From: Methylophaga sp.
GTDB lineage: Bacteria > Pseudomonadota > Gammaproteobacteria > Nitrosococcales > Methylophagaceae
Direction: 5' to 3'
Length of the DNA stretch: 64,000 nucleotides
NCBI GenBank assembly: GCA_011053005.1
Contig: DRHW01000016.1
Location: forward strand, 126,025 to 190,024
In this document: in pieces, positions 49,450 through 55,054 of the stretch
Position numbering within the stretch: position 1 is the first letter of the stretch
How the letters are laid out: the number at the start of each line of letters is the position of its first letter
Translations under genes and position numbers: made by a program
The notes under the pieces: generated by a model
Seen by the model: the letters and a program-made list of their open reading frames with translations, nothing else
Databases searched by the model: none
What the model was told of the DNA's origin: nothing

Positions 49450-49767
49450 TTAATCACCGATTAAGATTAATTTTCCCGTTTTAGGATCACGAAACACCTG
49501 ACCCACTGCTTCAAAGCCATCAGCTCCACCTTGGCGACCAAGTGGTGATTCAGGTATTTCTTTTCCTGTTTCAACAATTTCTTTTTCTGAATAAGCTGAT
49601 TGATTAGAAGATTGTTGAAAATGGTCTTGCAATTGATCACTCATCGCAATCAACGCCGCTATTAATCCACATGCAAATACTAACATCAGATCAAGAAAAT
49701 TAGCCATTGGCCCTAATGGCTCTTCGCTTTCAGCGCTGAATCTATTCTTTTGCCATGATCTTGCCAT
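49450..49767 (-). CDS. DUF2149 family single-TM protein, putative ExbD/TolR-like partner
   Basis: TM segment NFLDLMLVFACGLIAALIA; C-terminal VGQVFRDPKTGKLILI; last gene of the cobN-like operon. Confidence 0.8.
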   Translation of the reverse strand: MARSWQKNRFSAESEEPLGPMANFLDLMLVFACGLIAALIAMSDQLQDHFQQSSNQSAYSEKEIVETGKEIPESPLGRQGGADGFEAVGQVFRDPKTGKLILIGD

Positions 49768-49768
49768 C

Positions 49769-50230
49769 TTAGTTCCCTACACCTAATTCTAATTTCTGTT
49801 CCATTGTTGTTAATGCCGTGTCATACCAACGACGCCGAATGCGACCTAAAACGAAACCTGTAATCCCGACTAACAAACCTAAAACCGTGGTATCAAAAGC
49901 AACACTCATTGCCGTTGTTAAGATATCTAACTCACCAGAACCTAAAGCTGAGAGACCTGGGCCTAAAGGTATTAATGTGCCCATTAATCCTAACATCGGG
50001 GCAATTCTAGCTAAAAAATCACTACGTTCAATACGACGTGTAGCCATCTTTTCTAAACCTGCAATATCGCCACTTTTAATCCATAACGGCAAGGCCCTAA
50101 AGCGTTCAGATAATGCTATACCGACATCTAACAATGCAACCGCCGATAAGAATAATAATAGATAAATCACTGGTTCCAATAAATAGCCAACAAAACCATG
50201 CATGATCCCAATCGAAGCTGAACTTAACAT
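49769..50230 (-). CDS. MotA/TolQ/ExbB proton-channel family protein
   Basis: 153 aa; ARIAPMLGLMGTLIPLGPGLSALGSGELDILTTAMSVAFDTTVLGLLVG matches the ExbB/TolQ core. Confidence 0.9.
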   Translation of the reverse strand: MLSSASIGIMHGFVGYLLEPVIYLLLFLSAVALLDVGIALSERFRALPLWIKSGDIAGLEKMATRRIERSDFLARIAPMLGLMGTLIPLGPGLSALGSGELDILTTAMSVAFDTTVLGLLVGITGFVLGRIRRRWYDTALTTMEQKLELGVGN

Positions 50231-50233
50231 AAA

Positions 50234-53200
50234 TTAATTATTTCCTTGTTGTCGGTGTTTTTTCGGCATAAAGAAACCACGTAAACCACCCATAACGAGC
50301 AACAAAATAGCTGAAAACAATAAGATTAAATCTAGGTTAGAATCGTCATTTTTAGTCTCTTGCTTAGTTTTATCTTGTTCAGATTGATCTTGCTGTTGTT
50401 GAGTTTCAGGCTTTTCTTGTTGATCTTCTAGATTAACTTCAACAATAGTTGAAGGTAAAGTCACTGCTTCTGACGTATTTTTTGTCGACTCCACTAATGC
50501 CATTAATTTCTGATATGACGCTTGTTCAACATACGGCGCTAACCAAGGGTAAATAGGATTATCAGGATTAGTATGGCCACTGCCAGGTAAACCATGTTCA
50601 AGTACCAATGCAGTAAAGGCATCGGCGAGTTGCTTAATGTCTTTATCATCAGCATCCCAAAAATCTTTTTCTGCCGCAACTAACATCACTGCCAACATAT
50701 TAGTTTTGACATGAACATTCTGACCTTGTTGTAAAAAGTCATCTAAACCTAGTTCTAATTTATCATCAATATAAACGGCTTTGACTTCATCCCATACCCA
50801 GCTTTTTACCACACCAGGATTCGTTACTTGCCAGCCCCAAAGATATTCTAAAAACTCGCTGCCCATCGTTCTGGCACCGGCATAGCCTTCATTCATTAAA
50901 GGTTTAAGCCATTGCGGATTAAGATAACGGCCACGTAATTCTGATAATAAAGCGGTCTCTAATGGATCAATCTTCATATTATTACTGTCGGCATACGATA
51001 AGATAAAATTATTGGGTACCACGCCATTTTGCACTGTTTCAACCGCCAAACTTAACCCGCCCATGTAATCAAACGAATCATTATTATCCAGCAGGCCATA
51101 TAAATTACTGGCACGACCTAGATACGTATTATCAACCGTTGCTAATCGTTGTTTGAATAGGTTTTGATTCGGTTCGCCTTGTATATCATTGCCATAGGCA
51201 TGACCCATTCGATTAATATAAGTCTCGGCTATTTGGCTTCTATCTTGCCAAGCACCAGAACGTTCAACTAAACGATTCACACCCGCACCATAGGTGCCCG
51301 GCGTGGTGCCAAAAATACGATAACTTGCTTCACGACCTGCTTGCTCATCACCCATGCCGGCATTCAATGCCGCACTAGCATCTTTAACCCAACGTGCTGC
51401 AACACGATTGACCTCTAATGATTCATTGCCAGGATCAGTCATGCCATCTAATGGTGTTAGGGCACTATTCAAAGCATGTGTTAAAGCGGGGTAATCTTTG
51501 CGAATTAAATCAGATGATCCATCTAATGCTAATAATACGGCGCGTTCCAACCATATTAATTGGGCACCATATAAGTCACGAAATAAGCCTGATGTTGTAA
51601 ATAAAGTATCGTGCCTGACACGAAGAACAGGATTACCGTCAACATCTTTATCAGGTGTTTTACTGACATCAAAGCGTTCTAAACCTTTGAATATTCCACG
51701 ACTATTCCATGTCGGTTTGACGCCTAACATATCAAAACCAAAGCCAATCATCGCGCCTTCATCACGTACAACATCTGATGCCCACAATACGATTGCATCT
51801 GATCCTTTTAGATCTTCATTGCTTGGTTTCGATGATAAAGGGTTAGGTTCTGATTTTTTACTAGTATCTAAATTCGTTTGAATACGTGCTTTAGTAGCTA
51901 GTTCAACACCCACGTTATAACCCAAACGTGATGGAATTAAACTGCCATCCATTGCATAAAAATTTCGACCTGTTGGCAAAACTTCTGGTGTACGAATAGG
52001 ATCATTCCCTTTACCCACATTGACATACTGACCATTAAGCGCACCCAATAAAGCATCCATTTCTGCTTTCGGTGATTTTGCTAATAAATCATACCAACTT
52101 TTATCTAATGTTTGATTTTGACTCATTGATGTCACCATCGTTTCGATAGCATCCGTCGACCAATCACGACCAAATACATGTAAACCTAATGGCATAAAGT
52201 CTTCTTGTAATTTAGTTAAATAATGACCTACCTCATGCACTAATAACTCGTCATCAACTTGATCAAACTCGGTGATACCTCGTACGGCCAATTCGCTTGC
52301 CATACTAGTTTGTAGTTCATCTCGAAGATTAAGCTCATCGACCAGTTTTTTAATTTCATCAATCGCACGATGACGTATCGCTTTGGCATCAACAGGCGCT
52401 GATTCAAAACTTTCAACCACTTGGCGTAGCGATAATAAATCATCATAAAGCGCCGTACTTTCAAGCGGCGGTGTTAAGTGATCAATCATTACCGCTAAAC
52501 CACGGCGTTTAGCTTGAATGCCTTCGCCAACACCATCCACAATATAAGGGTAAATACTCGGTAAATCGCCTAATATTAAAGATGGATAATCTTCATCACT
52601 CATCCCTACTCGATGACGTGGTAAAAATTCATAAGTTGAATGACGGCCTAAATGAATGAGCGCATCGGCTTTAAAGTCTTTTTGTAACCATTGATAAAAA
52701 GCCACATATTGATGTGGCGGTGGGAATGATAAATTGGCATGTAATAACTCTTCGTTTATTTCCCAACCACGCGGCGGTTGTGGACCGATAAATACATTTC
52801 CAAATTGAATCCCAGGTAAAACCAAGTTGTCATCATGCACCATCACATAACCTGGCGCTGGCCCCCAACCACGAATACCTTCTACGCCTTGATTTGCAAT
52901 AGCATCAACCAACACTTTCGCTTTGTCCCAATCTACTTGCCTCGGATCGGCATACATCGCTTCTAATTGTTCAAGTAAATTCAAAGCACGATTACGGGCA
53001 GGATGATCAACGCCATCTAGAGCATGATGCAAGTCTTTAATCACCCTTTCCATTAAATGTTGGCCAATGGTTTTATCTTCTAAATTAACGGCACGTTGCA
53101 ACATAATATGTAGATAACCCAGCGGCCCGTTGACCATTTCTTGTTGAACACCTTCAGGAAAATCAGCAAACCATTTTAAATATTCAGCCTTACTGACTAA

Positions 53201-54631
53201 CTGAACCTTCGATGACATTTCTTTTAAGGCTAGACCATCTTCAGGTAAATTAACGCCCTTTTCTTGCAGCATATCGAGTAATTTTTCAGATGAACTCGGT
53301 AGCTCGCCAGTTTGATAACCCGCCGCTTTTAATGCATTCAACATATCGAATAATGATTCGGGCACATTCAAATTATCAGCGCCGATATTGTGTCTACCCG
53401 GAGGATGGTTGTAATAAATAATGGCGACTTTTTTATCTTTATTTTGTTTTTGCTGTAATGCCAACCAACGATTAGCACGCTGTGCCATTAACTTAACTTG
53501 TTTTTCAATCGGTAACGTCAGTGATATTTCAGCACCCGTTAATTCATCTATGGTTGATTTACTCATTGCAGCCACAACTACCGGCTGGCTAATGCCTTGT
53601 AACTCAGGCATCGCAACAAGGTAATGCACTGAATTCCAGCCTAAACCTTCTTCCGATAATAACCATTCATCTTCCGTATTATCAGCAAGTCGAATGCCTT
53701 TCAGCACAGGCACACTTAATTCAGATAAATATTGATTAACCTGTTCTCGTCCTTCACCCGCACCGACAACAAAGTTTTGTAAAGATATGATTAAACTGAT
53801 TTTTTTCTTATTTTCAGCCAGCAGTTTTACTGCATCGACGCTTGCTTCACCCCAACCAGCTAACACCGTCATACAACCTATATCCGCTGATTCAATTCCC
53901 ACGCACAACGAATCTAATAATGCTTTTTCAGCATGACGATCACCGGTTTCGTAATCTAATAAGACGACCCATGATTTTTTCTGTGAAAAATCAAACTGTG
54001 ACAATGGCTCGACATGATCTAAATAATAAGCACGTAGTGGGGTGACTAACTTAGGTACACGAGTTGATTGAGTATCAGTTAATAGATGACTGAGTTGTTC
54101 GAATAAACCACGCATATTACTACTGTCGCGACCAAGCCAAAATAAACGGGTTAACAACCAGTCATTGTGTTGAGGAAACTTGGCGATGTGTTGATTAAGC
54201 CAAATTTCAGGTGTTAATAGTGGATCAGGATTTGCCATCAAACCATCAATATCAGCATTCGCCAATAATGATTTGCCATGTAATGTAGAGGCGGCGACTA
54301 AACGTCGGTCACTATGTACAGCAATAAAATTATCTTTCTGATGTTGCGATAAAGCATTATTTAATAACTCTGCACTACTTCCAAACACACCGCCTGTAAA
54401 AACGATATCAGCTGATTTTAACAAGCTATTTTGTTGCTCTAGGGGTAATGATGACCACTGCGTCGTAGTGCGAATAGTGATCTGGTCAGATGGCTTATCT
54501 TTTAAATAATCATGAGCGCCTGACACCACTTCTGACACATTGCGTTGAGACACAATCGCCAATATGGTGTCAGCGTAAACAGGAGTGGCAAACACCGATA
54601 AAAGAAGTATTGAGAAAATAGTTTTGATCAC
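50234..54631 (-). CDS. CobN-like cobaltochelatase/Mg-chelatase H-subunit family protein with signal peptide and C-terminal TM anchor
   Basis: 1465 aa, GTG start; IYYNHPPGRHNIGADNLNVPESL, GPQPPRGWEINEELLH, ADALIHLGRHSTYEFLP, QAKRRGLAVMIDHLTPPLEST; N-terminal MIKTIFSILLLSVFATPVYA; C-terminal LDLILLFSAILLLVMGGLRGFFMPKKHRQ. Confidence 0.92.
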   Translation of the reverse strand: MIKTIFSILLLSVFATPVYADTILAIVSQRNVSEVVSGAHDYLKDKPSDQITIRTTTQWSSLPLEQQNSLLKSADIVFTGGVFGSSAELLNNALSQHQKDNFIAVHSDRRLVAASTLHGKSLLANADIDGLMANPDPLLTPEIWLNQHIAKFPQHNDWLLTRLFWLGRDSSNMRGLFEQLSHLLTDTQSTRVPKLVTPLRAYYLDHVEPLSQFDFSQKKSWVVLLDYETGDRHAEKALLDSLCVGIESADIGCMTVLAGWGEASVDAVKLLAENKKKISLIISLQNFVVGAGEGREQVNQYLSELSVPVLKGIRLADNTEDEWLLSEEGLGWNSVHYLVAMPELQGISQPVVVAAMSKSTIDELTGAEISLTLPIEKQVKLMAQRANRWLALQQKQNKDKKVAIIYYNHPPGRHNIGADNLNVPESLFDMLNALKAAGYQTGELPSSSEKLLDMLQEKGVNLPEDGLALKEMSSKVQLVSKAEYLKWFADFPEGVQQEMVNGPLGYLHIMLQRAVNLEDKTIGQHLMERVIKDLHHALDGVDHPARNRALNLLEQLEAMYADPRQVDWDKAKVLVDAIANQGVEGIRGWGPAPGYVMVHDDNLVLPGIQFGNVFIGPQPPRGWEINEELLHANLSFPPPHQYVAFYQWLQKDFKADALIHLGRHSTYEFLPRHRVGMSDEDYPSLILGDLPSIYPYIVDGVGEGIQAKRRGLAVMIDHLTPPLESTALYDDLLSLRQVVESFESAPVDAKAIRHRAIDEIKKLVDELNLRDELQTSMASELAVRGITEFDQVDDELLVHEVGHYLTKLQEDFMPLGLHVFGRDWSTDAIETMVTSMSQNQTLDKSWYDLLAKSPKAEMDALLGALNGQYVNVGKGNDPIRTPEVLPTGRNFYAMDGSLIPSRLGYNVGVELATKARIQTNLDTSKKSEPNPLSSKPSNEDLKGSDAIVLWASDVVRDEGAMIGFGFDMLGVKPTWNSRGIFKGLERFDVSKTPDKDVDGNPVLRVRHDTLFTTSGLFRDLYGAQLIWLERAVLLALDGSSDLIRKDYPALTHALNSALTPLDGMTDPGNESLEVNRVAARWVKDASAALNAGMGDEQAGREASYRIFGTTPGTYGAGVNRLVERSGAWQDRSQIAETYINRMGHAYGNDIQGEPNQNLFKQRLATVDNTYLGRASNLYGLLDNNDSFDYMGGLSLAVETVQNGVVPNNFILSYADSNNMKIDPLETALLSELRGRYLNPQWLKPLMNEGYAGARTMGSEFLEYLWGWQVTNPGVVKSWVWDEVKAVYIDDKLELGLDDFLQQGQNVHVKTNMLAVMLVAAEKDFWDADDKDIKQLADAFTALVLEHGLPGSGHTNPDNPIYPWLAPYVEQASYQKLMALVESTKNTSEAVTLPSTIVEVNLEDQQEKPETQQQQDQSEQDKTKQETKNDDSNLDLILLFSAILLLVMGGLRGFFMPKKHRQQGNN

Positions 54632-54780
54632 GTCGTATCCAGTAAATAATGAGCATACTGAACGACCATGGGATAGCGAAACGACACGACAATTGCTTTA
54701 TGAAACGCAAGATTATGCATCATTTAAAAGCGGAAATCCGCCCCGACTGCACCCCCCGGCCATCAGAAATAATGTCAAAA

Positions 54781-54962
54781 TGGCAGGTCTACTGGCTCAC
54801 GTTTCATAGTTTGTCACCACCTTCCCAAAGCTTACGATCAAGCTTCAGTGGTGTTATCAGTAAAAACTGAGGTGACGCACTCCACGTATACAGTTGCGGG
54901 GACAGCTTCGCTTGCAAAATTAGTTTGCACAAATTCCCTATTATCTCAATCAAGAGACCATT
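54781..54962 (-). promoter_or_regulatory. Cobalamin (B12) riboswitch upstream of the cobN-like operon
   Basis: Minus strand: AATGGT...GGGAATTTGTGCAAACTAATTTTGCAAGCGAAGCTGTCCCCGCAACTGTATACG...CACCACTGAAG...GGGAAGGTGGTGACAAACTATGAAACGTGAGCCAGTAGACCTGCCA, matching B12-element conserved blocks. Confidence 0.92.
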
Positions 54963-55054
54963 AAAACGAGCTAAAGTATACGTCAAACAAGGTGTTTCGT
55001 AGTAGAAATTAATCAGTAAGAGCTAATGTAAATTGAAAAGTTAAATTTAAACCA

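Follow-up and report, generated by a model that had tools for sequence, protein, structure and literature searches.

Textbooks describe class I chelatases as machines that run on ATP. The canonical cobaltochelatases, CobNST and CobN-ChlI-ChlD, have a cytoplasmic CobN subunit (family PF02514) that works with AAA+ and VWA partners and is usually encoded beside CobW. Here we describe a locus from Methylophaga sp. (contig DRHW01000016.1), found in a stretch of 64,000 nucleotides that was analysed as a whole and is called the window below. At this locus an adenosylcobalamin riboswitch precedes genes for an exported CobN-like protein, an ExbB-family channel protein and a DUF2149 protein, together called the trio. 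Our tentative reading is that the locus encodes a corrinoid cobaltochelatase that is exported and probably driven by protons.

Exported CobN-like proteins are already known, namely HmuS, BtuS and PA1923. HmuS (BtuS2) of the Bacteroidota hmu operons is a heme dechelatase that, like the window protein, combines a class I body and a catalytic His with export and a membrane anchor. The hmu operons also encode an ExbB-family partner (HmuU) and a small membrane protein, and a hmu-like locus of Aureibacter encodes a DUF2149 protein. In vitro, HmuS was active with NADH, without ExbB/DUF2149 or ATP, and made only 1-2 turnovers; its authors assigned HmuU and HmuV to powering the receptor HmuR (PMC12583661). 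HmuT, HmuU and HmuV have been listed as possible influences (PMC13227078). In Pseudomonas aeruginosa, a Zur-regulated CobN-like operon, PA1922-PA1925, belongs to zinc starvation (PMC4542158); according to the literature, its genes include an exported CobN-like protein, an ExbB-type protein, a DUF2149 protein and a TonB receptor. According to PMC6460266, Rodionov 2003 proposed BtuS; metalloporphyrin salvage is given there as its proposed role, and it is set apart from B12 synthesis. The BtuS-type group of PMC6460266 probably includes the window-type protein; that paper mentions neither an ExbB/DUF2149 motor nor a role as a replacement cobaltochelatase. Most of the chelatase superfamily cannot be annotated reliably (PMC12583661), and our literature search found no paper that links ExbB to B12 cobaltochelatase function or treats the clade with B12 riboswitch and ExbB/DUF2149 as a cobaltochelatase.

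Results

A trio preceded by a B12 riboswitch in the window

An earlier analysis made from the letters of the DNA (the sequence-only reading) had described a minus-strand unit of riboswitch, CobN-like, ExbB-like and DUF2149 genes. Rfam and Pfam searches found all of these parts in their places, and the profiles PF02514, PF01618 and PF09919 each matched above cut-off (Table 1). The genes are tightly packed, with 3 nt between the CobN-like and ExbB-like genes and 1 nt between the ExbB-like and DUF2149 genes. The riboswitch, which is the sole Rfam match in the 64-kb window, reaches slightly past the end given for the unit earlier (54962). Since the gene upstream has its own strong terminator (55095-55057) and the gene downstream is convergent, the trio and its riboswitch form a free-standing unit. 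Folding of 54612-54800 gave no distinctive expression platform (z -1.35). None of the open reading frames (ORFs) of the window could be recognised as cobS/T, chlI/D or any cob gene, as the sequence-only reading had stated for the locus.

Table 1. Positions of the trio, its riboswitch and the second trio of the same genome
Feature	Position	Strand	Evidence
RF00174 cobalamin (adenosylcobalamin) riboswitch	54765..54977	-	cmscan 91.1 bits (gathering cut-off 31.5), E 2.9e-21, model matched full-length
Exported CobN-like class I chelatase, 1465 aa, GTG start	50234..54631	-	PF02514, 810 bits (cut-off 24.5)
ExbB/TolQ/MotA-family channel protein, 153 aa	49769..50230	-	PF01618, 39.0 bits (cut-off 22.9)
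DUF2149 protein, 105 aa	49450..49767	-	PF09919, 39.4 bits (gathering cut-off 27.1)
Second (zinc-type) trio of the window genome	contig C25 end L007:7482-10545; contig C7 end L006:7624-14721		joining of contig ends inferred

An exported and anchored relative of CobN

The CobN-like protein begins with a signal peptide at about residues 1-20 (MIKTIFSILLLSVFATPVYA) and ends with a Q/E/K-rich linker (about 1385-1430), a membrane anchor (about 1432-1450) and a basic tail. On account of these two signals its body should face the periplasm, and the protein should be exported and anchored in the inner membrane, in agreement with the sequence-only reading. Signal peptide and anchor were present in nearly all trio members, and the anchor was absent from the canonical CobN and BchH proteins that we examined. 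Against the CobN equivalog TIGR02257 the window protein scored 491 bits, below the cut-off of 822, and it fell below the cut-off of all PRK05989-type models. Its best match in the PDB was HmuS (9d26, E 6e-102), in an alignment that hardly covers the head and neck region with the heme-site residues Met79 and His254 of HmuS. The catalytic-type residue His664, which is invariant, lies within GRHSTYEFLP and aligns with His538 of HmuS (motif GTHGSLEFTP), a residue that is essential, as the Ala mutant is inactive (PMC12583661). All 90 B12-type sequences contained G-R-H-S-T-x-E-F-L-P, whereas most others had G-x-H-G-x-x-E-[WF]-x-P. Unlike HmuS, the B12-type proteins form their own clade, have a B12 riboswitch, BtuB and cob genes as context, and lack HmuY; neither HmuY nor a receptor was found in the window unit.

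In a maximum-likelihood tree of 53 sequences, made by a quick method and with long branches that leave the inner order uncertain, the B12-type proteins fell into one group (support 100). This group joined the zinc, nickel and heme trios, HmuS type included, and stood apart from canonical CobN (100) and from BchH (99). The shared group of exported trios and the match to 9d26 agree with the kinship to hmu loci put forward in the sequence-only reading. The nickel version refers to Runella slithyformis plasmid pRUNSL01 (L161, 119-10836), where a hydrogenase hyp cluster contains a trio together with a TonB receptor and a transporter that is NicO-like at a sub-threshold score, which suggests a nickel function. 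On a plasmid of Cupriavidus campinensis (L163, 4296-8414), an exported CobN-like protein with an anchor follows two ORFs that are neither ExbB nor DUF2149.

The trio recurs in a B12 context

A search of the 323 genomes of the class found DUF2149 in 19, and PF02514 was present in 17/17 of those searched for it. By score the DUF2149 proteins were of two kinds: zinc-like and similar ones lay at about 94-108 bits, those of the window type at about 20-50 bits. The laboratory isolate Methylophaga aminisulfidivorans also has the trio. Every window-type genome had RF00174 matches, and BtuB or cob genes adjoined the trio in most window-type loci. A scan of GTDB genomes then gave 282 relatives, the best 80 of which (L071-L150) supplied the locus counts below. 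They span Pseudomonadota, Campylobacterota, Nitrospirota, Nitrospinota and Myxococcota. ExbB was found in 80/80 loci and DUF2149 in 78/80, mostly as an overlapping neighbour (the gaps had medians of -1 and -11 nt). In 51/80 there was a match to a pattern for the B12 riboswitch; matching by this pattern is not a covariance search and recovered nearly all Rfam matches inside validation loci. A B12 salvage or synthesis gene or BtuB was present in 33/80. The co-occurrence of the three families and the riboswitch in the sequence-only reading is not confined to the window.

The gene order CobB-CobN-ExbB-DUF2149-CobO recurred, and it follows the succession of reactions on either side of cobalt insertion. 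Many trio operons also contained BtuFCD, which comes immediately after the trio in L142 and L144. Neither CobW nor CbtAB turned up in the loci, the only COG0523 match being a zinc-type neighbour in Arenicella, and no AAA or VWA gene was found beside any of the 80. CobW is a cytoplasmic cobalt chaperone and the usual companion of cobN (PMC7689651). Taken with the riboswitch and the separate clade, the B12-operon context indicates that the window protein is very probably a corrinoid-dedicated exported chelatase.

Three further observations concern neighbours of the trio. In G123 (L045:9118-9789), a CbiE-like precorrin C5-methyltransferase gene lies between ExbB and DUF2149, and CbiC is absent from the genome. 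CobB was rejected as a trio-specific partner, as it is not exclusive to trio genomes. An apparent CobG beside the trio in Pseudomonas, Stutzerimonas and Azotobacter was dropped, being a sulfite-reductase-like ORF of 552-582 aa with 21-24% identity.

Late-cobalt genomes favour insertion

Three window-type genomes, G077, G209 and G104, carry CbiC/CobH beside the trio. Their operons encode CobN-ExbB-DUF2149, BluB, CobO, CobB, CobA, CbiD, an ABC ATPase, an ABC-2 permease, CobG, CobH, CobI, CobJ, a CobK-like protein, CobL and CobM, with BtuB, BtuCD, CobU and CobT further along in G209 and G104. CobG scored above its equivalog cut-off in all three (TIGR02435, 247-323 bits against 235). CobG acts on a metal-free intermediate, and cobalt must therefore be inserted late. 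Strains of E. coli have been engineered to produce hydrogenobyrinic acid (PMC7268678). The CobN of the trio is the sole PF02514 protein of each genome, and no chelatase subunit CobT, ChlI/D-type ATPase or CbiX was found, CbiK and a lone CobS not being among the searches. A CobT match in G077 (23 bits against 759) was not CobT. In the contrast genome G176, where CbiC occurs with a zinc-like trio, CbiX adjoins CbiC. The trio is thus the best candidate for the missing cobaltochelatase in G077, G209 and G104, which combine a late-cobalt operon with a lack of every tested cobaltochelatase of known type. Among the roles that the sequence-only reading had listed (cobalt insertion, removal or corrinoid salvage), we accordingly lean towards insertion over removal.

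The alternative is that the trio acts as a corrinoid dechelatase or metal exchanger. In the periplasm it would strip imported corrinoids or porphyrins of their cobalt, or of a wrong metal, so that the freed metal or ring could be used. The nearest solved relative, HmuS, is a heme dechelatase, the exported trios are one group in the tree, and the zinc, nickel and heme sister trios stand in metal-acquisition settings that are easiest to read as metal release. However, removal of cobalt makes little sense for genes that are predicted to be repressed by cobalamin and lie beside CobB, CobO and BtuB, and it leaves the three late-cobalt genomes without any known cobaltochelatase. We regard removal as rather unlikely.

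In the same three operons, an ABC-2 type transporter (DrrAB/YadH-like) is encoded between CbiD and CobG (L050/L041, L051/L043 and L052/L046); the pair was not found in other window-type loci. ABC-2 type systems are mostly exporters, and this one possibly exports metal-free corrin. The transporter, together with the lack of CobW and CbtAB in these operons, fits cobalt insertion outside the cytoplasm.

No CobT or ChlI/D partner in the window genome

In the window genome (2.89 Mb, nearly complete) three B12 riboswitches were found, which precede the trio, BtuB and a CobB-to-CobO operon, the latter two on contig C3. This operon encodes a 240-aa membrane protein, CobB, BluB, CbiB, CobC, CobQ, CobU, CobT, CobS and CobO, named from translations, with Pfam used for the CobB- and BluB-like proteins. 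Genome-wide, PF06213 (the chelatase subunit CobT) and PF02570 (CbiC/CobH) gave no match, and the ChlI/D-type ATPase model TIGR02442 gave background only (about 32 bits or less against 779). One short CbiX/SirB-like protein was found. With CbiC/CobH, CobT and ChlI/D absent, the organism looks like a corrinoid salvager that keeps a CobN-like protein without a known ATPase partner. The lack of a class I AAA+ partner, noted at the locus by the sequence-only reading, thus held for CobT and ChlI/D across the genome; other B12 genes, which it had not seen at the locus, do exist elsewhere, namely BtuB, the CobB-to-CobO operon and the CbiX/SirB-like protein.

The window protein resembles canonical CobN in its PF02514 chelatase subunit, its B12 context and the reaction proposed for it. 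It could be an ordinary cytoplasmic-type cobaltochelatase whose unrecognised ATPases are encoded elsewhere. A pair resembling CobS and CobT occurs in one of the trio genomes (G126), and generic MoxR-like and VWA proteins gave weak matches in all genomes. These points are opposed by the signal peptide and outward topology, by the absence of CobT and ChlI/D-type ATPases from the window genome and the three late-cobalt genomes, and by the 80 loci, which had no neighbouring AAA, VWA or CobW gene apart from the one zinc-type COG0523. A cytoplasmic enzyme is therefore very improbable.

The only other PF02514 gene of the window genome belongs to a second exported CobN/ExbB/DUF2149 trio, which is cut by contig ends. 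Like PA1922-PA1925 it includes a TonB receptor gene, here before the trio; a COG0523 GTPase, DUF1826, ZrgA and a Fur-family gene follow. This zinc type shares the three-part build with the B12 type and differs from it in the Fur-family regulator, ZrgA and COG0523, in an identity of about 35%, and in another DUF2149 subfamily (94 against 39 bits). Separately, a membrane protein of about 180-240 aa adjoins BtuB or a B12 riboswitch at several loci (L011:8899-9621 and L045:3613-4185, also L188, L190, L191 and L193); it had no Pfam or NCBIfam match, and we presume that it may be a BtuM-type importer.

ExbB-like and DUF2149 proteins as a candidate motor

The ExbB-like protein carries the motifs LGLMGT and AFDTT. 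Its structure model (predicted local distance difference test, pLDDT, 90) had ExbB/TolQ as top Foldseek matches (E 0.03, probability 0.97-1.0), and the channel Thr was conserved in 74/80 loci. Together with the PF01618 score, these data bear out its assignment to the ExbB family. The DUF2149 protein has a single membrane helix with Asp26, a membrane Asp kept in 76/78, and a C-terminal hairpin motif of the YRDPxTGK type (FRDPKTGK in the window protein). Its low-confidence model (pLDDT 62) showed no globular domain and was not good enough to search for similar folds. Neither profiles nor structure gave a significant match to ExbD, and homology on those grounds was dropped; the support for the earlier label 'ExbD-like' is the membrane segment with its Asp. 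The pair thus resembles the ExbBD, TolQR and MotAB stators in its ExbB-family fold, channel Thr and single-helix partner with an Asp, but has no recognisable ExbD/TolR periplasmic domain, and its presumed load is a chelatase.

ExbB and DUF2149 are linked to exported, anchored CobN-like proteins in B12, zinc, nickel and heme versions. In a plasmid copy of Marinobacter sp. M3C (L159:8992-13194; operon order BtuB-BtuFCD-CobB-CobN-CobO-CobQ), the B12-type CobN is truncated without the anchor, and ExbB and DUF2149 are both missing, which looks like one recent deletion. The sequence-only reading had proposed that the pair energises the chelatase. Linkage, matching topology, channel residues and this one possible co-loss speak for that proposal, the coupling step itself being our extrapolation, and we judge it reasonably likely that the pair drives the chelatase.

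The pair might instead serve TonB-dependent uptake through BtuB, or the handling of corrinoids in the periplasm, in which case the CobN-like protein would be a corrinoid-binding shuttle or a motorless chelatase and the linkage would reflect nothing more than co-regulation. BtuB is present in many operons, the HmuS authors gave HmuU and HmuV the task of powering HmuR (PMC12583661), and HmuS was active in vitro without the pair. G077 has a tonB gene, possibly dedicated to BtuB, between btuB and the trio (L041:15586-16392). Yet ExbB accompanied the exported CobN in 80/80 loci, and in the trios of zinc, nickel and heme type as well, whereas the loci often lack an adjacent BtuB or tonB; moreover, DUF2149 is not recognisable as ExbD, and in the Marinobacter copy anchor, ExbB and DUF2149 are missing together. 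An uptake role for the pair is thus unlikely.

Discussion

The sequences themselves show which parts make up the locus, its riboswitch included, as well as the signals for topology, the separate clade, the setting in B12 operons and the lack of those ATPase partners that were tested; from these features we infer substrate, reaction direction and energy coupling. In the cobaltochelatase that we propose, scarcity of adenosylcobalamin would allow expression of the operon through the riboswitch. The CobN-like protein would be secreted and tethered through its C-terminal helix to the periplasmic side of the inner membrane, where it would bind a metal-free or wrongly metallated corrinoid that had entered through BtuB or, in full producers, had been exported from the cytoplasm, and would insert cobalt in the periplasm. 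Conformational work may be drawn from the proton gradient by a ring of ExbB-like proteins together with DUF2149, the latter with its membrane Asp placed like the proton-carrying Asp of ExbD; CobST and ChlID obtain such work from ATP. The cobalt corrinoid would then re-enter through BtuFCD or another inner-membrane importer and pass to CobB, CobO and CobQ.

A periplasmic chelatase that serves a cytoplasmic pathway needs both export and re-import of the corrin. It is possible, though on the doubtful side, that full producers run such a periplasmic cobalt loop, with a corrin made in the cytoplasm by a CobG-type route, export by the ABC-2 transporter, proton-driven insertion of cobalt by CobN and re-import by BtuFCD, and that salvagers metallate scavenged metal-free corrinoids. 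Salvagers such as the window organism would keep the second half of the loop only.

Several points weigh against a proton-driven cobaltochelatase. Most carriers, the window genome included, seem to be salvagers without an obvious source of metal-free corrin. The CobN proteins of the three late-cobalt genomes are 79-83% identical, and as close relatives these genomes count as one evolutionary case. HmuS, the only characterised exported relative, removes metal in vitro, and does so without the pair. Profile and structure comparisons gave no significant ExbD match for DUF2149. Azotobacter chroococcum holds both the trio and a canonical CobN, and the CobS/CobT-like pair of G126, an Arenicella genome whose only CobN is of the exported trio type, lies at L206:1777-4546 (492 and 335 bits, both below cut-off). 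CobB and the trio also occur apart: G145 and G058 have CobB but no trio of the B12 type, and CobB is missing from the B12 operons in G126 and G226.

If our reading is true, an exported clade would replace CobNST and would offer a different way to power metal insertion, and part of B12 synthesis would sit outside the cytoplasm. Hundreds of proteins annotated 'CobN' would then become a separate system. A further prediction of this reading is that bacteria exchange metal-free corrinoids with one another.

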